64,000 nucleotides of DNA, taken from positions 1-64,000 of the forward strand of contig LEKQ01000005.1 in assembly GCA_001443005.1 (NCBI GenBank), read 5' to 3'. Under the pieces are notes generated by a model that was not told the origin of the DNA, made no database searches, and saw only the letters and a program-made list of their open reading frames with translations. Each line of letters opens with the position of its first letter. Within the stretch, counting starts at the first letter, position 1. The translations under genes were made by a program, and so were the position numbers. This stretch comes from a bacterium GBS-1 (GTDB lineage: Bacteria; Synergistota; GBS-1). Shown here piece after piece: positions 37,151 to 51,938 of the stretch.

Positions 37151-38623
37151 TCATTTGAAGTGCTTCTCGATTACCTCCTTGCTTGGTGGAGGCGTAAGCA
37201 GAGAAACTACTACCATGACGATAAGGGTTATGATCGCTGCGGGTATCAAGGCGTGGAAGCCCTTAGTTAAAGCGGGGTTCTTGGTAAAGTATATGACGGA
37301 GATGAGCCCGATTATAAGGCCTGAGAGGGCGCCATATTTGTTGGCTCTCTTCCATCTGACGCCTAGTACCAAGAGGATCGTGTTTATACCAAGACCGCCG
37401 AAGACGAAGAGGATTATCTGGAATATCGTTCCTGGGCGGTAGATTCCTATTAGGGTGGCTGCGATTCCCACCAGCAGGGTTGCTACCTTAGCTATGTTTA
37501 AAACGGTTTTTTCATCTGCCTTGGGGTTTATCGCCTGCTGATAAAGGTCACGAGCGAAGGCTCCTGATACAGCTACGATCACGGAGTCTATAGTTGACAT
37601 TCCTGCTGCTAAAACGCCAGCCATAAGCACGCTTCCAATTATAGGATGCAAGGATTTGGAGACTAATGTTGGGACGACCCAATCGGTCATCTTGGGAGGA
37701 ATACCGGGTACGGCTACCCTTCCGACGACAGCAGCGCTATACATGAAGATGACCGATAGGAACATCCCTATCCCGCTTGCTATTACCGCTCCCCATAAGA
37801 CCCTCCTATCCCTCATAAGGAAGAACTTTGTTGCAAGCTGCGGTTGACCAACTGCGAACAAGTTCCATAGCATCACATTGGAAAGGAAGAAGGGGTAAAA
37901 CATATAGGCTCTTGGGCTACCAGGCATAGTGAAGGCTTTTGGATCCGCAGCTAATAAGGCCTTGTTTGCTGCCTCAACCCCTCCTGCCAGGTTAGCTGCT
38001 CCCCAGAAGGTAAGAACGGCCGTTATAACCATCAATATACCTTGGGTGATGTTGGTGTACATGGCACCTCTTATGCCGCCCATGAAGCAATAAATAGTTA
38101 CTCCCAGCCCCATTATACACACGCCCACCCAGTAGGGCCAACCTGTGAATGTGTTGAATATGGTTCCAGCCCCTATGGTCTGGGCTCCCATGTAAGGTAT
38201 TAAGAAGATTATTATAGCGATCGCAGTTATAACCCTTATGGCTTTGCTTTCATACCTATCGGCAAAGTAGTCAGGAAGCGTCAAGAATCCATGCTTTTTA
38301 CCTAATCTTACGAGATGGTTTCCCACCAAAGCTGCTGGAACGAGCATGCTAAAGGCTGCTGTGGGGACGCTTACCGCTAAACCCGCCCAGCCGACGTTGT
38401 AAATAGTTCCAGGAACGCCGAGGAAGGTGCTTATGCTGTATTGGGTTGCGAAATAACCGAGTCCACCTAAAAGGATACCTGCGGATCCGCCCATCACGAA
38501 GAACTCATTTAAGTTTAGGGCCTTCTTGGATGATATCCATCCTAAGTAGAGGACACCAGCTAAGTATATGCTGACGACGGTTATGAATACTCCAGGAAAG
38601 GGAGTTACTGTTGGTCCTTGCAT
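37151..38623 (-). CDS. sodium:solute symporter (SSS family)
   Basis: This 490-residue protein has about thirteen membrane helices. SSS features include GYFATQYSISTFLGVPG in helix 2, GGIRGAMYTNITQG and VLAAGMSTIDS with the Na2-site Ser/Asp region. The PanF-like subgroup is suggested by the small companion gene just upstream. Its operon with three peptidase genes suggests import of a peptide, amino acid or N-acyl amino acid, although pantothenate-like substrates are possible. Confidence 0.9.
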   Translation of the reverse strand: MQGPTVTPFPGVFITVVSIYLAGVLYLGWISSKKALNLNEFFVMGGSAGILLGGLGYFATQYSISTFLGVPGTIYNVGWAGLAVSVPTAAFSMLVPAALVGNHLVRLGKKHGFLTLPDYFADRYESKAIRVITAIAIIIFLIPYMGAQTIGAGTIFNTFTGWPYWVGVCIMGLGVTIYCFMGGIRGAMYTNITQGILMVITAVLTFWGAANLAGGVEAANKALLAADPKAFTMPGSPRAYMFYPFFLSNVMLWNLFAVGQPQLATKFFLMRDRRVLWGAVIASGIGMFLSVIFMYSAAVVGRVAVPGIPPKMTDWVVPTLVSKSLHPIIGSVLMAGVLAAGMSTIDSVIVAVSGAFARDLYQQAINPKADEKTVLNIAKVATLLVGIAATLIGIYRPGTIFQIILFVFGGLGINTILLVLGVRWKRANKYGALSGLIIGLISVIYFTKNPALTKGFHALIPAAIITLIVMVVVSLLTPPPSKEVIEKHFK

Positions 38624-38629
38624 GACCGA

Positions 38630-38899
38630 TCACTCCTCCTCTTCAAATAAACCATAGCTCTTAAATTGAAGATACATTATGAAGCTGCCAACTATCGTTA
38701 GGATGTTCACTATGATCCATGTCCAGACAAACCACGGTATCAATAGCGGTCCAAGGAAGAGCTCATTGGTGTAATTAAACTTTCCTGGTATCCATACCAA
38801 GAAGTAGAGCACGGCGAAATAGATTATCCACCACACTATAAACCTTGGCATCTCTGAAGGGTGGAAGCTTTCCGGTAACCTTATAACAGGCCTTTCCAA
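38630..38899 (-). CDS. small membrane companion of the SSS symporter
   Basis: This 89-residue protein has two membrane helices (about 20-39 and 55-77) and acidic C-terminal residues. It lies six bases before the symporter gene, as do the YhdT/DUF997 or DUF4212 small subunits of other SSS carriers; I cannot decide between those families. The start, a TTG at 38899, follows AAGGAGGTGG. It is the first gene of the peptidase-symporter operon. Confidence 0.75.
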   Translation of the reverse strand: MERPVIRLPESFHPSEMPRFIVWWIIYFAVLYFLVWIPGKFNYTNELFLGPLLIPWFVWTWIIVNILTIVGSFIMYLQFKSYGLFEEEE

Positions 38900-38945
38900 G
38901 GTGGACCACCTCCTTGAGACGCTAAAATAATATAACCTATTAATG

Positions 38946-38954
38946 ATTATATCA
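38946..38954 (-). promoter_or_regulatory. extended -10 element for the symporter-peptidase operon
   Basis: TGATATAAT on the minus strand lies about 47 bases before the TTG start and about 20 bases past the icd terminator. No good -35 is seen. Confidence 0.45.
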
Positions 38955-38972
38955 CTTTTGTGTATTTGCTAT

Positions 38973-38997
38973 AAAAAAAGGGGGTCTTAAGACCCCC
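38973..38997 (-). terminator. strong rho-independent terminator of the icd-acn transcript
   Basis: On the minus strand GGGGGTC-TTAA-GACCCCC is a perfect 7-bp GC stem, followed directly by seven T. It lies about 24 bases after the icd stop. Confidence 0.9.
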
Positions 38998-39020
38998 TTT
39001 CGTCAAAGAGAAAATTATCT

Positions 39021-40217
39021 TCACATGCTTCTTATATGCTCTATTACTCTCTCCCCGAAGTCGCTCGTGGACACCTCCTTAGCCCCCTCTATCTGACGGG
39101 CCAAGTCGTAGGTTACGACCTTTTCCTCTATCGTCCTTTGTATCCCCTCTATTATGAGCTCTTTAGCCTCTTTCCAGCCTATATACTCGAGCATCTCGGC
39201 GCCTGAGAGGATAAAGGAACAGGGGTTTGCCATGTTCTTGCCAGCGTACTTGGGAGCCGATCCATGAGTCGCTTCGAAGACGGCTACTCCCGTTTCGAAG
39301 TTTATGTTTGCTCCCGGCGCCATCCCCAGACCTCCGACTTGAGCTGCACAGGCATCGGATATGTAATCGCCGTTAAGGTTAGGGGTGACGATTATATCAT
39401 ACTCATCTGGGCGCAGGAGGATCTGTTGGAACATAGCATCCGCTATCCTATCCTTTAAGACTATCTTCCCCTCGGGGACTTTGCCACCGTACTCCCTCAA
39501 GAGATCTTCTTCGGTTATAACCTTCTTGCTGTACTCTTCCTTAGCGAGTTCGTATATTGCATCCCTGAAGAGTCCCTCGGTATACTTCATTATATTGCCC
39601 TTGTGCATTATGGTTACTGATCTTCTTCCGTGGCGTAGAGCGTACTCTATGGCTGCTCTACCCATCCTCTTGGATCCGAAGACGCTGATAGGCTTTATGC
39701 CTATACCAGAGTCCTCCCTTATCTTTATGTTGAACTCTCTTTCCAAGAATTCCCTTATCTTCTTGGCTTCTTCGGCTTTAAAGGGCCACTCTATCCCAGC
39801 GTAGACGTCCTCCGTATTCTCTCTAAAGACTATGATGTCAAGGAGCTCTGGTCTCTTTAGGGGAGATGGGACCCCTTTAAAGTATCTGACGGGTCTGAAG
39901 CAGACGTAGAGGTCAAGTATTTGTCTAATCGCAACGTTGACCGATCGATATCCTCCGCCCACGGGGGTAGTCAAAGGCCCCTTTATTGCAACCTTGTACC
40001 TCTTTATCTCCTCTATGGTTTCCTCAGGAAGGACATCGCCTACCTCTTCGATCGCTTCTTCTCCTGCTAATAGTTTCTTCCAGTTTATCTTTCTTCTTCC
40101 CCCATAAGCCTTCTCAATCGCTGCATCGATGACCCTCAAACCTACCGGAGTTATGTCTCTCCCTATGCCGTCTCCCACTATGTAAGGTATCGTTGGGTTA
40201 TCAGGAAGCTCTATCAA
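39021..40217 (-). CDS. icd: NADP-dependent isocitrate dehydrogenase
   Basis: This 398-residue enzyme is of the E. coli Icd type. The substrate loop [13 protein letters not shown] carries the Ser and Asn that contact isocitrate. The cofactor region [15 protein letters not shown] keeps the Lys-Tyr pair that selects NADP in the E. coli enzyme. It converts isocitrate to 2-oxoglutarate and CO2. It lies three bases after the aconitase gene and is followed by a strong terminator, so acn-icd is a two-gene operon facing the citrate synthase gene across a regulated intergenic region. Confidence 0.94.
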
Positions 40218-40220
40218 CCT

Positions 40221-42176
40221 TTAAACACCTCCTTTTGAGATTAAGGGTAACACTCCTCCTTCGAGGAGAGCTCTTCTTTGCCTTTCAGTCAGGTTTAACC
40301 TTAGCGTTATTTCCCTATTTCCTCTGATTCTTAAGAGCTTTGTTAATTCCCTTCCCTCTTCTATATCTTTTCTTATGCTTGGAAGGATTACTTCATCCCC
40401 TTCTTCCAGCTCATCGTAGTCTTGGGGATCAGCTAAGGTTAAGGGGACTATACCGAAGTTGATGAGATTGCTTAAGTGTATCCTCTCTATCGATTTAGCT
40501 ATCACGGCTTCGACGCCCAAGAACATGGGACATAAAGCCGCATGCTCTCTTGAAGAACCTTGGCCGTAGCTTTCGCCCGCCAATATCACGTTTGCCAAGC
40601 CCTTTTCCCTATTTCTTAAGGCCCTTTCATAGAAGGTTGGGTCTATAGGTTCAAAGACGTGCTTGGAATACTCAGGGATGTTTGATCTGAGCTTGAGATA
40701 TCCTCCGGCGGGTGTTATGTGGTCTGTAGTTATCTTATCCCCAACCTTTATGGCTATGACTCCCCTTATGCTACTTTTCAGTTCATTCTTAATCGGTATG
40801 GGCTTTATGTTCGGTCCTCTATATATCTCTACCTTTTCTCTCTCTTCGCGAGGTAGTGGGAATATGAAGCCTGAATCATCTATGACGAAGCTCGATGGAA
40901 GGGAGAACCTCCTGTAGCTTATACCTATATCCTCAAGCCTTCTTGGGTCGGTTATCCTACCAGTTAGGGCAGCTGCCGCGGCGGTTTCGGGGCTCGCCAG
41001 ATACACTAAAGCGTTTGGGGTACCACTTCTTCCCTTAAAGTTCCTGTTGCTCGTTCTTAAGGAGACGCCGTTAGAGCATGGAGAAAAGCTGTTTCCTATG
41101 CAGAAGTTACAAGTGGCTTCAAGTATTCTAGCGCCAGCCCTTATCATAGCTGAGAGTCCTCCATCCCTTTCCACGGTTAAGAGGACCTGCTTGGACCCAG
41201 GTGTTATTCCTAACTGTACATCCTTATGTATAACCCTTCCGCTCAATATATGTGCTACGGTCATTAGATCTCGGTAGGACGAGTTAGTGCAGCTACCTAT
41301 AGCCACTTGGTCTACCTTAATTCCCTCAACCTCCCTAACTGGCTTTACGTTATCGGGAGAGTGGGGGCAGGCGATTAGCGGTTCAAGCTCGGACAAGTTT
41401 ATCTCTATTACGCCGTCATACTTCGCATCCTCATCAGCTTCTAGGGGTATCCAGTCTCCTTCTCTTCCCTGCTTTCTTAAGAACTCTAAGGTGACCTCAT
41501 CGGATGGGAATAGGGAGGTAGTTACGCCGGTCTCTGCTCCCATATTGGCTATCGTGGCTCTATCTGGGACCGATAGCGACTTAACCCCTTCTCCTCCATA
41601 CTCTAATATGCATCCGACGTTTCCTTTGGTGGTTATTATGGATAGCACTTTTAAGATCACATCCTTTGCGGATACCCAAGGGGGTAGTTCTCCCTTAAGA
41701 TCTACCTTTATCACCTTTGGGTAGGTTAGGTAAAAGGGACCTCCCCCCATGGCTATTGCCACGTCTAATCCACCAGCTCCTATTGCTAAGGCTCCTATTC
41801 CTCCCGCTGTGGGTGTGTGACTGTCCGAGCCGATGAGAATAGTTCCAGGCTTTGCGAACCTCTCAAGATGAACCTGGTGGCATATTCCATTTCCGGGTTT
41901 TGAGAAAATTATGCCGAACCTTTCGGCCACGCTCTGAAGATACTTATGGTCGTCCATGTTCTCAAAGCCAATCTGCACCGTGTTGTGATCTATGTAGATC
42001 ACGGCGAAGCTTTTAACCTCCCTAAAACCAAGACTTTCAAACTCAAGACAGGCAGTGGTGCCGGTGGCATCCTGGATTAGTGTTTGGTCAACCTTGATGG
42101 CGATTTCCTCTCCCTTTTCCATTTTTCCGCTTACAAGGTGCGACTCTATTATCTTTTGAAAGAGGTTTTTCCCCAT
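40221..42176 (-). CDS. acn: aconitate hydratase (651-residue anaerobe type)
   Basis: This 651-residue aconitase has the LeuC-like part first, with cluster ligands in GSCTNSSYRDL and CNFCIGN, and the swivel (LeuD-like) domain at the C-terminus (GESYGQGSSREHAAL). The length matches the shorter putative aconitase subfamily found in many anaerobes, not the ~890-residue AcnA. It interconverts citrate and isocitrate. It shares an operon with icd. One of two matching operator-like sequences (42229-42247) lies 53 bases ahead of its start. Confidence 0.93.
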   Translation of the reverse strand: MGKNLFQKIIESHLVSGKMEKGEEIAIKVDQTLIQDATGTTACLEFESLGFREVKSFAVIYIDHNTVQIGFENMDDHKYLQSVAERFGIIFSKPGNGICHQVHLERFAKPGTILIGSDSHTPTAGGIGALAIGAGGLDVAIAMGGGPFYLTYPKVIKVDLKGELPPWVSAKDVILKVLSIITTKGNVGCILEYGGEGVKSLSVPDRATIANMGAETGVTTSLFPSDEVTLEFLRKQGREGDWIPLEADEDAKYDGVIEINLSELEPLIACPHSPDNVKPVREVEGIKVDQVAIGSCTNSSYRDLMTVAHILSGRVIHKDVQLGITPGSKQVLLTVERDGGLSAMIRAGARILEATCNFCIGNSFSPCSNGVSLRTSNRNFKGRSGTPNALVYLASPETAAAAALTGRITDPRRLEDIGISYRRFSLPSSFVIDDSGFIFPLPREEREKVEIYRGPNIKPIPIKNELKSSIRGVIAIKVGDKITTDHITPAGGYLKLRSNIPEYSKHVFEPIDPTFYERALRNREKGLANVILAGESYGQGSSREHAALCPMFLGVEAVIAKSIERIHLSNLINFGIVPLTLADPQDYDELEEGDEVILPSIRKDIEEGRELTKLLRIRGNREITLRLNLTERQRRALLEGGVLPLISKGGV

Positions 42177-42228
42177 CTACTCCATACCCCCTTTGAAAGT
42201 TTTCTCACAGCTTGACGAGTATTTTTAT

Positions 42229-42247
42229 ATCATATATTATATGATAC
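42229..42247. promoter_or_regulatory. operator-like palindrome 1 (acn side)
   Basis: ATCATATATTATATGATAC lies in the acn leader or promoter. With the T before it, the core TATCATATA-T-TATATGATA is a perfect 9+1+9 inverted repeat. It matches the sequence at 42609-42627 at 16 of 19 positions. Confidence 0.6.
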
Positions 42248-42453
42248 ATGAAAAGTTCTCCTTTGGCAATATCCTTTTGGAGGATAGGGATGATCATCGA
42301 GTGCTTCATGAAGGTGGAAAAGTCTTCATTGATCGGTTCGCTCCTAAAAGAATAAAGGACCTTGGGGTTTTGGCTTTAGCTGACCGAGTTAATATTGGGG
42401 GCGTGAGGATTTTACATCGGGATATCCGTCTGAGTGGGGTTGAAAGTTTATGA
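42241..42453 (+). pseudogene. doubtful or decayed small reading frame
   Basis: An open stretch from ATG 42241 would encode 70 residues (…KRIKDLGVLALADRV…) but has no ribosome site and starts inside operator 1. Immediately after, in another frame, GTG 42433 opens a run reading VYDLFMELEEPKGLRKLEAF and stops at about 42520. The two could be remnants of one frameshifted gene. I recognise no family. It may equally be chance open sequence in a ~490-base regulatory region. Confidence 0.25.
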
Positions 42454-42548
42454 CCTTTTTATGGAATTGGAAGAGCCAAAGGGTTTGAGAAAGTTGGAAG
42501 CTTTTCTTGATAGGGTTTAAAACCGCTTCCTCTCGCGCAGGTCAGGTC

Positions 42549-42577
42549 TTGACATGAGGGTAGGTGCCAAATATAAT
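42549..42577 (+). promoter_or_regulatory. consensus sigma70 promoter of citrate synthase
   Basis: TTGACA (42549-42554) and TATAAT (42572-42577) are both perfect hexamers with a 17-base spacer. Predicted transcription start is near 42584, leaving a leader of about 85 bases to the GTG at 42670. Confidence 0.88.
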
Positions 42578-42591
42578 TACAGATAATTATA
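42572..42591. promoter_or_regulatory. inverted repeat across -10 and transcription start
   Basis: TATAATTACAGATAATTATA has 8-base perfect arms separated by CAGA and covers the -10 box and predicted start site. It is a possible repressor site, but A/T-richness makes chance more likely than for the 19-bp pair. Confidence 0.4.
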
Positions 42592-42608
42592 AACTAGCAT
42601 CTTTATAC

Positions 42609-42627
42609 ATCATGTAATATATAATAC
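42609..42627. promoter_or_regulatory. operator-like sequence 2 (citrate synthase leader)
   Basis: ATCATGTAATATATAATAC is a near copy (16 of 19) of the palindrome at 42229. It lies about 25 bases downstream of the predicted transcription start, so binding would block elongation or initiation. The GntR regulator at 43843 is the obvious candidate binder. Confidence 0.55.
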
Positions 42628-42669: not shown

Positions 42670-43809
42670 GTGACTGATGAGTTAGAGGTAAAGTGGGGGC
42701 TTGAAGGTGTAGCTGTGGCTTCATCTTCTATATCCTTCCTCGATGGAGAGGAAGGGAAGCTCATCTATAGGGGTTTTGACATTAGGGATTTGGCTGAAGG
42801 ATCTTCCTTTGAGGAGGTTTGTTACCTGCTTTGGTTCGGCTCCTTACCGAGCGATGATGAATTGGAGTGGATTTCTCTTGAGCTCTCCAAGGAAAGGGAG
42901 CTACCTCGTGAGATCGTCGAGGTTATGAAGCTTCTTCCGAAGAACGCTCACCCAATGGATATATTAAGGAGTGTTGTTTCACTATTAGGGGTTTACGCTA
43001 ATGATAATTCCGTTTCTTTCAAGAACGCGATTTCTCTGACTGCCAAGCTTCCCACCATAGTCGCTTACTGGTATAGGATTAAAAATGGCCTTCCTCTCGT
43101 AGGACCTGAAGGAGGTTTAGGACATTCGGATAACTTTCTTTATATGATGTTTGGGAGGGTTCCGGAGAACTCTCATCTTTTTGACAAGGCATTAATACTT
43201 CACGCTGAGCAGGAGATAAACGCTTCGACTTTTTCGGCTATGGTTACCTCATCCACGTTAAGCGATATCTTTTCAGCTGTTACTTCTGCCATCGGGACGC
43301 TTAAGGGTTCTCTTCACGGTGGTGCGAATGAGAAGGTCTTTTCCATGCTTGAGGAGATAGGAGATGTGGGGTGTGTGGAAAGCTACGTTGATCTTTTGAT
43401 TTCGAGAAAGGAGAGGATAATGGGCTTTGGTCATAGGGTTTATAAGACCTATGATCCTAGAGCTTTAATGCTTAAGGAGTGGTTGATGGAGCTTAGCTTG
43501 AAAGATGAAGTTAAATATCTTGATATAGCCTTGAAGTTAGAAGAGGTGGTTTTAAGCAGGTTCAAGGATAGAAAGATATATCCAAACATGGACTTTTATT
43601 CGGGAATCCTTTACAATTACTTTGGTATACCGAAAGAGTTCTTCACAGCCCTATTCGCTATGGCCAGAGTGGTAGGCTGGACCGCTCATGTTATAGAGTA
43701 TCGTAAGGATAATAGACTGTTTAGGCCTATTAGCGTTTATGTTGGCCCGAAGGGCCTTAAATATAAAGAGGTGAAAGAGAGCTTTAGGAGGGTTTCTGGC
43801 TTAGGTTAA
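42670..43809 (+). CDS. gltA: citrate synthase
   Basis: This 379-residue enzyme is of the short bacterial/archaeal type. It has the first active-site His in HAEQEINASTF, the glycine segment GSLHGGANEKV, the second His in GFGHRVYK and the catalytic Asp in PNMDFYSG. It condenses oxaloacetate and acetyl-CoA; 2-methylcitrate synthase activity cannot be excluded from sequence. The GTG start at 42670 follows GAGGAGGGG. With acn and icd on the opposite strand it completes the oxidative route to 2-oxoglutarate. Confidence 0.93.
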   Translation: MTDELEVKWGLEGVAVASSSISFLDGEEGKLIYRGFDIRDLAEGSSFEEVCYLLWFGSLPSDDELEWISLELSKERELPREIVEVMKLLPKNAHPMDILRSVVSLLGVYANDNSVSFKNAISLTAKLPTIVAYWYRIKNGLPLVGPEGGLGHSDNFLYMMFGRVPENSHLFDKALILHAEQEINASTFSAMVTSSTLSDIFSAVTSAIGTLKGSLHGGANEKVFSMLEEIGDVGCVESYVDLLISRKERIMGFGHRVYKTYDPRALMLKEWLMELSLKDEVKYLDIALKLEEVVLSRFKDRKIYPNMDFYSGILYNYFGIPKEFFTALFAMARVVGWTAHVIEYRKDNRLFRPISVYVGPKGLKYKEVKESFRRVSGLG

Positions 43810-43842
43810 ATAAACCCTAGAGATGATCGGGCGGTGGTAAAA

Positions 43843-44502
43843 ATGGGGATTATAGAGCGGAGATCCTTAAGAGACGAAGTTCTGGAGAAGGTAAAGGGGT
43901 ATATTATCGCCGGGAAGTATCTTCCGGGGCAGAGGATAGTTGTTGATAGCTTGGCGAAGGAGCTCGGCGTTAGCATAACGCCTGTTCGGGAAGCACTGCA
44001 TTACCTCGCGGCGCAGGGGTTCCTCAGCGCGGAACCTCACAAGGGGTTTTTGGTTAAGAAGTGGACAAGGAAGGAGATAGAAGACCTCCTTTCCTTGCGC
44101 ATGTACCTTGAGAAGCTTGCAGTTAGGCTCTTCATAGAGAGGGGTTATGAGGATAACTTGGAGCTTTTAAGGGAAAAGCTTAAGGAGATGGATATAGCTT
44201 CGCAGGAAAAAGACGTTGAGAGGATGAGCCAGCTTAACTCGGAGTTTCACGCCATAATAGTTAAGGGTTCTGGAAATGAGGAGCTTAAGAGGGTTATGGA
44301 TTCCTTAAGCGAGAAGCTTCATAGGGTCAGAGTTCTCTCCATATCCTATCCCGGAAGGTTTAGGGAGTCCTATAAGGAGCATCTAAGCATATACGAAGCT
44401 ATAGAGAAAAAGGATATACCTTTAGCGGAGAAGCGGGTTGAAGAGCATTTAAGTAGCATCATGAGGATACTCTTAAAGAGGTATGAGGAGGGGTTGATAT
44501 AG
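43843..44502 (+). CDS. GntR-family regulator, FadR/FCD subfamily
   Basis: This 219-residue regulator has an N-terminal winged HTH (SLRDEVLEKVKGYIIAGKY, then LAKELGVSITPVREALHYL) and an all-helical FCD ligand domain. Conserved acidic and His residues there (for example NSEFHAIIV and YKEHLSIYEAI) usually bind a metal that holds a carboxylate effector. It follows citrate synthase by about 33 bases and ends three bases from the convergent sugar-acid operon, so it could control either. ATG 43843 is preferred to GTG 43834. Confidence 0.9.
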   Translation: MGIIERRSLRDEVLEKVKGYIIAGKYLPGQRIVVDSLAKELGVSITPVREALHYLAAQGFLSAEPHKGFLVKKWTRKEIEDLLSLRMYLEKLAVRLFIERGYEDNLELLREKLKEMDIASQEKDVERMSQLNSEFHAIIVKGSGNEELKRVMDSLSEKLHRVRVLSISYPGRFRESYKEHLSIYEAIEKKDIPLAEKRVEEHLSSIMRILLKRYEEGLI

Positions 44503-51400: not shown

Positions 51401-51902
51401 CTAGGACATCTTTCCTTTCTAAGAGTTTGCTTACTATCCTCGCTGTTGCCCCCCATATTCTATAGCCCTGCCAGTTATATACCGGGTAGGAGATCTCCTT
51501 ATCACCCAGTTTGAAGCTTTCTATCTTTACGGGGATCTTCTTCAGATCCTCAAGCGGTATTACTATTACCTCTTTCACCTCTTTCTCGTTTACCTTAAAA
51601 TCTGGTTTACCCTTTATCAGCCCGACAAAGGGCTTTACCAGATACCCTGTCTTATAGACCATTTCCTCCTCGATTTCACCTATAACCTCTATATCTTCAC
51701 CTTTTATGCCTATCTCCTCCTCTATCTCTCGAAGAGCGGTCTTTAAGGGGGTTTCTCCGGGCTCCTGCTTTCCCCCGGGGAAGCAGATCTGTCCACTGTG
51801 CTGATTCAGATTTTTCTCTCTCACTGTTAGTATTATGCTCAGCTTTCCCTCTTTAAGCGTGAAGGGGATTAATACCGCCGCTTTCTTGACTTCCTTCATC
51901 AT
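51333..51902 (-). CDS. Nudix hydrolase, CoA-pyrophosphatase-like
   Basis: This 189-residue protein has a complete Nudix box (GGKQEPGETPLKTALREIEE, then EIG). FPGGK before it and a UPF0035-like opening (LTVREKNLNQHSGQICFPGG) indicate the YeaB/NudL CoA-pyrophosphatase subgroup. It would hydrolyse CoA or oxidised CoA to phosphopantetheine products. The reading frame continues 68 bases into nfo; the true family C-terminus near WGATARIVSKLL is already complete before that, so the overlap may be an added tail. Confidence 0.88.
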   Translation of the reverse strand: MMKEVKKAAVLIPFTLKEGKLSIILTVREKNLNQHSGQICFPGGKQEPGETPLKTALREIEEEIGIKGEDIEVIGEIEEEMVYKTGYLVKPFVGLIKGKPDFKVNEKEVKEVIVIPLEDLKKIPVKIESFKLGDKEISYPVYNWQGYRIWGATARIVSKLLERKDVLDELNRRAHVYFGRDMEGHRTGR

Positions 51903-51938
51903 AGCATATATTATACTCCAAAGAAGGGGGGGAAGTAT

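Follow-up and report, generated by a model that had tools for sequence, protein, structure and literature searches.

The DNA between the divergent aconitase and citrate synthase operons of this Synergistota bacterium carries two related 19-bp sites, O1 and O2, which are probably operators of the PmiR/CitO-like GntR/FCD repressor encoded beside them. The repressor would come from a tricarboxylate regulon that is now reduced to the aconitase–isocitrate dehydrogenase (acn-icd) operon and the citrate synthase–gntR operon. The window, that is, the whole 64,000-nucleotide stretch analysed, belongs to the genome G000, and the features of the locus are collected in Table 1.

In the proposed mechanism, the GntR/FCD protein would repress as a dimer, depend on a metal and respond to a carboxylate. 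Bound at O1, the protein would mask two -10 elements, that of the leftward acn-icd promoter and that of a rightward one. Binding at O2 would stop transcription just past the start of the citrate synthase–gntR transcript, so that the protein would also repress its own gene. A tricarboxylate (citrate, isocitrate, aconitate or a 2-methyl analogue) in the FCD pocket would release the protein from DNA. The ancestral regulon would also have held a Tct tripartite transport system, a PrpF-family isomerase and an MmgE/PrpD-family enzyme. Deletion of this middle operon in the lineage of the window would have spared only a stub of prpD and brought the two sites to a distance of 380 bp. The targets of GntR would now be limited to the genes for citrate synthase, aconitase and isocitrate dehydrogenase and to gntR.

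Table 1. Genes, predicted promoters and candidate operators at the locus (window coordinates), with two similar sites in other genomes
Feature	Position	Strand	Remarks
NADP-type isocitrate dehydrogenase (icd)	39021..40217	-	3 bp past aconitase; TIGR00183 above cut-off
Aconitase (TIGR01342/PRK07229 type)	40221..42176	-	
Predicted rightward promoter	42212..42240	+	TTGACG-17-TATTAT; overlapped by O1
O1, predicted operator	42228..42246	.	TATCATATATTATATGATA; near-perfect 9-1-9 palindrome, 0 arm mismatches
Predicted acn-icd promoter	42241..42269	-	-35 TTGCCA (42269-42264), 17 bp, -10 TATCAT (42246-42241)
MmgE/PrpD-family gene remnant	42316..42520	+	C-terminal part, frameshifted; tblastn with G002 PrpD
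Predicted citrate synthase–gntR promoter	42549..42577	+	TTGACA-17-TATAAT; consensus match
O2, predicted operator	42609..42627	.	ATCATGTAATATATAATAC; imperfect palindrome, in citrate synthase leader
Si-citrate synthase	42670..43809	+	TIGR01800, citrate/2-methylcitrate synthase II
GntR/FCD regulator	43834..44502	+	In citrate synthase operon; predicted O1/O2 binder
O1-like palindrome before FCD gntR paralog	L155 1723-1741 = G003:C194:7222-7240		
O1-like palindrome before FCD gntR paralog	L163 1171-1189 = G023:C1:487170-487188		

Sequence and conservation of the two sites

The twin 19-mers of the preliminary description were reproduced in sequence, in coordinates and in their agreement at 16 of 19 positions, and the best symmetry of O1 was found at a shifted position (Table 1), which refines its placement. 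By shuffle statistics, such a match is unusual but not decisive by itself. A second match to O1 of at least 16/19 appeared in the intergenic DNA in 11 of 20,000 first-order Markov shuffles (0.05%), and in 42 of 20,000 (0.2%) when the AT-rich 121 bp around O2 were shuffled alone. The motif takes the form ATCAT(A/G)(T/C)A...TATATGAT. Scoring of the Fur, PerR, BioR, FadR-type and PrpR consensus sequences at O1 and O2 gave values at shuffle level or weak ones. This includes the FadR-type TKGT...ACMA boxes (GT/AC 2-3 bp apart at the palindrome centre), whose best matches were at shuffle level; the FadR-type operator rule has exceptions, such as NanR and BioR (PMC4494728).

The whole of G000 (1.81 Mb, 15 contigs) was scanned with up to three mismatches allowed. 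Matches with zero or one mismatch occurred at the O1 and O2 places only, and every other match had three mismatches. The latter lie within genes, one of which resembles rpsL, or ahead of unrelated genes, and were not counted. One weak match of this kind, ATCATAGCATATATTATAC at 51898-51916, spans the beginning of a NUDIX-like gene and immediately precedes a gene resembling that of a cobalamin adenosyltransferase. A degenerate-pattern scan of 61 relatives returned none to few matches per genome, little above the reversed control; consequently, a match distant from the locus was given no weight by itself. The promoter of the hydroxyacid operon has no site (best match 11/19), which speaks against the refuting case named in the preliminary description, binding of GntR solely at that promoter. 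No site was found at the SSF transporter promoter either (best match 12/19).

The scan of relatives proposed in that description located both sites again in G002, a member of the same family, and this conservation provides the decisive support for reading O1 and O2 as real operators. There, the sites lie 6.7 kb apart and bracket a six-gene operon, prpF-tctC-tctC-tctB-tctA-prpD, with aconitase-icd and citrate synthase-gntR kept on opposite sides of it. O1 falls between aconitase and prpF, and O2 between prpD and citrate synthase. The operon encodes a PrpF-family isomerase, two TctC proteins, TctB, TctA and an MmgE/PrpD-family protein; the TctA, TctB and TctC names are presumptive and were assigned by reading the sequences. 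The PrpF and PrpD proteins score under the NCBIfam equivalog cut-offs. The O1 copy (L089 5101-5121) is identical to that of the window at 21 of 21 bp, against 54 of 100 in the aligned flanks. The O2 copy (L089 11847-11867), TACATCATACAATATATGATGTA, is a better palindrome than the O2 of the window and retains TTATACATCAT..AATATAT.AT a few bases past a TTGACG-17-TATAAT promoter. G002 is the sole relative showing both sites, because the contigs of G001 and G003 end.

The spacer between O1 and O2 in the window preserves a trace of this operon. In a tblastn search of the whole window with the PrpD protein of G002, the spacer was matched (E=2.8e-5) by two stretches in different frames (VFIDRFAPKRIKDLGVLALADRVNI and EDFTSGYPSEWG, with 30.4 and 25.4 bits, respectively), while the best of 300 shuffle controls reached 21.2 bits. 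A third frame of the remnant ends with VYDLFMELEEPKGLRKLEAFLDRV and a stop. Because of this remnant, and because no PrpF-family gene was found in G000 and the closest TctA relatives there are paralogs with no more than 38-41% identity, the close, divergent twin layout is regarded as secondary. The comparison indicates that about 6 kb disappeared in the lineage of the window and that the operators thereby reached their present spacing.

A second family, represented by G005, offers a different arrangement. On contig C60, the gene series gntR-prpF-prpD-tctC-tctC begins with the GntR ortholog (51% identity), and the motif ATCATGTAAAATATATTAT, with two mismatches to the degenerate pattern, stands 7 bp ahead of the gntR start. 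This pattern occurs at two distinct places only in G005, a third listed match being an overlapping end (contig C189). On contig C160, the end of a TctA gene (69% identical to that of G002) is followed on the same strand by aconitase and icd, and we infer that C60 and C160 belong to one operon. Because of this layout, and because G005 has no Si-citrate synthase, the ancestral regulon would have served tricarboxylate uptake and processing, with citrate synthase as a later recruit. The earlier idea of a dedicated regulon for the oxidative TCA branch would thus hold for the remnant in this lineage but not for the ancestral state, to which G002 and G005 would add PrpF, Tct and MmgE/PrpD alongside Acn and Icd.

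Among 61 related genomes, close relatives of the citrate synthase (at least 72% identity) occur in G002 and G003 only; the others are at most 34% identical and partial, and the next best named relatives are archaeal, at about 50%. The gene was likely gained by horizontal transfer. As a separate observation, the Fe-S cysteine pair of the aconitase reads CNFC(I/V)G in the family of the window and G002 (L089 3093-5048), and CG(A/P)C(I/V)G in most other Synergistota aconitases examined; this variant may affect the substrate range of the enzyme.

The regulator and its candidate ligand

The product of the gntR gene combines a winged HTH domain (PF00392, 6.7e-14) with an FCD domain (PF07729, 7.4e-29), which assigns it to the FCD subfamily of the GntR superfamily. 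Residues N135, H139, H183 and H205, corresponding to a metal site of Asn/Asp and three His, are invariant in five orthologs. They align with the histidines of TM0439 and are equivalent to N137/H141/H192/H214 of Atu1419, a protein in which the zinc is fortuitously occupied by citrate (PMC7797058). A structure model from five orthologs (mean pLDDT 88.5) matches FCD structures, with PmiR as the top PDB match, and the best solved relative by sequence search is likewise PmiR (7xp0/7xp1), at 33% identity. This kinship is of family level and not orthology, and the ligand of PmiR is not transferable. A plasmid search for closer relatives returned just FCD proteins 34-36% identical, with mixed neighbours and no ortholog; the gene of one of them adjoins a tripartite tricarboxylate transporter.

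The gntR gene follows citrate synthase in G000, G002 and G003. By this linkage in three genomes, and by the similar site before the G005 ortholog, the local GntR protein appears to be the best candidate for the binder, as first suggested, and we infer that it binds O1 and O2 and represses from them. It is unlikely that another FCD/GntR paralog, or another regulator, uses the sites and that the adjacent gntR is incidental. G000 contains eight GntR matches, the motif is non-canonical for FadR-type proteins, and O1-like palindromes stand 50-80 bp upstream of two paralogous FCD gntR genes, in G003 and G023. The latter suggest that this class of FCD protein reads this class of site and that the operator class is common to several FCD regulators in the phylum; paralogous regulators reading similar sites may mean that another GntR is the binder, or that there is cross-talk. 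However, both sites flank the operons of this very gntR in G000 and G002, and a site stands ahead of its ortholog in another family (G005), where the neighbours differ. A global regulator would be a poor fit to just two good sites per genome, and a Fur- or PerR-like consensus at O1 and O2 scores at shuffle level.

Elsewhere in G000 (C1 329941-331103; L159, minus strand), a homocitrate/isopropylmalate-synthase-like gene is interrupted both by a frameshift and by an in-frame stop, while G002 has an intact copy, 78% identical. An O1/O2-like site, ATTATATATGATATAATGT (C1:331277-331295), lies about 170 bp upstream of the broken gene.

The conserved FCD metal residues are consistent with a carboxylate ligand, as the preliminary description had supposed. 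A six-carbon tricarboxylate would be a better guess than the citrate or 2-oxoglutarate proposed there. A strict methylcitrate (propionate) regulator, sensing 2-methylcitrate or 2-methylisocitrate, is as improbable as a paralogous binder. Such a regulator would suit the G002 module, in which PrpF and a PrpD-family protein are joined by a citrate/2-methylcitrate synthase of TIGR01800 type, and PmiR as the closest solved relative, although the identity to PmiR is so low and PrpF and PrpD fall below the equivalog cut-offs. Moreover, the locus has no adjoining prpB, isocitrate dehydrogenase being in the operon instead, and G005 is without Si-citrate synthase. The PrpR operator ATTGTCGACAAT is also absent from the intergenic region, where its best match (8/12) was equalled by 81% of shuffles. 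PmiR reportedly senses 2-methylisocitrate, to judge by the title of a cited study.

PmiR (PrpR, PA0797) of Pseudomonas aeruginosa is the closest solved relative in both sequence and fold. It is an FCD repressor linked, like the predicted repressor in its G002 setting, to citrate/methylcitrate synthase, prpF and prpD (7xp0/7xp1; PMC9765439). The gene of the exact PmiR protein stands ahead of prpB-prpC-acnD-prpF-prpD, which PmiR represses (PMC9765439). In addition to its low identity, it differs in its operator and in an operon that includes prpB and acnD and has no tct transporter or icd.

Promoter geometry and the mode of control

The perfect TTGACA-17-TATAAT promoter described between the sites is present and is the sole exact one in the window; its G002 counterpart, TTGACG-17-TATAAT, occupies the equivalent position. 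The predicted acn-icd promoter is represented in G002 by TTGTCA-17-TATCAT at the matching position, and the rightward promoter by TTGACA-18-TATTAT, which would drive prpF-tct-prpD there. O1 covers the predicted -10s of the leftward acn-icd promoter and of the rightward promoter. With the transcript start taken as 7 bases past the -10, the predicted citrate synthase transcript has O2 at about +25 to +46, and its G002 counterpart at +5 to +27. Thus, the original placement of both sites in leaders is right for O2 but not for O1, which overlaps predicted -10s in both directions. The geometry relative to the predicted promoters suggests repression and self-repression. On the other side of icd, a gene-free gap of about 400 bp (38624-39020), kept in G002, extends to a sodium:solute symporter gene (37151-38623). 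No operator was found in this gap, and the symporter is therefore probably under its own control.

The same geometry bears on whether GntR could be a citrate-dependent activator rather than a repressor, which seems slightly less likely than either alternative above. The model for this, and the nearest functional parallel, is CitO of Enterococcus faecalis, which likewise belongs to the GntR/FCD proteins and requires citrate and a divalent metal (PMC4746285, PMC3198936). Its two operators lie between divergent citrate operons, just as O1 and O2 lie between divergent operons of tricarboxylate metabolism. Its regulator gene also lies within one of the operons, and a metal-dependent carboxylate pocket is predicted for the regulator of the window as well. 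However, the CitO sites are at -41 to -74, upstream of the -35 and thus of the promoters, whereas in both species studied here O1 lies over predicted -10s and O2 past the predicted start, which is the geometry of a repressor. CitO controls citrate lyase and citrate transport, in contrast to acn, icd and citrate synthase in the window; CitO-type gene content is absent from the window locus, and a transporter operon is found in relatives only.

Double-site FadR-type divergons (Suvorova et al. 2015, PMC4494728), in which separate sites lie near their own operons and the spacer sets the distance, fit the layout of the window, although their TKGT/ACMA boxes are not found in its motif. Trans-aconitate assimilation by TarR-TarA-TarB in Bacillus velezensis (PMC11495376) combines a PrpF-superfamily isomerase with a dedicated transporter and delivers cis-aconitate to aconitase. 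By analogy, the G002 and G005 operon might likewise feed cis-aconitate to aconitase. The TarR system differs in its LysR-type activator, its other transporter type and the lack of citrate synthase.

Chance similarity of AT-rich DNA with no function is very improbable: a 16/19 match does arise in up to 0.2% of AT-rich shuffles, but O1 is fully identical and O2 preserved in G002 between flanks of 54% identity, and a similar site precedes the gntR ortholog of G005.

Regulatory history and its significance

The preferred reading, a local GntR/FCD repressor acting at O1 and O2, may be extended to the history of the regulon, although this step is tentative and somewhat less than an even bet. A substrate-inducible regulator of imported tricarboxylates, once the transport genes were deleted, would have become dedicated to the oxidative TCA branch of the cell itself. 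It would now control a probably transferred Si-citrate synthase together with acn-icd and would sense an internal tricarboxylate. In the literature searched, no description of a GntR regulon joining aconitase and citrate synthase was found.

The class of mechanism is already well known, and it is the regulatory history that forms the interesting part. The locus provides two candidate operators and a regulator through which the control of aconitase, icd and citrate synthase can be tested, in a family that has been little studied within Synergistota, where Si-citrate synthase is otherwise nearly absent. The relatives show how a catabolic regulator can end up controlling central metabolism once an uptake operon has been lost.
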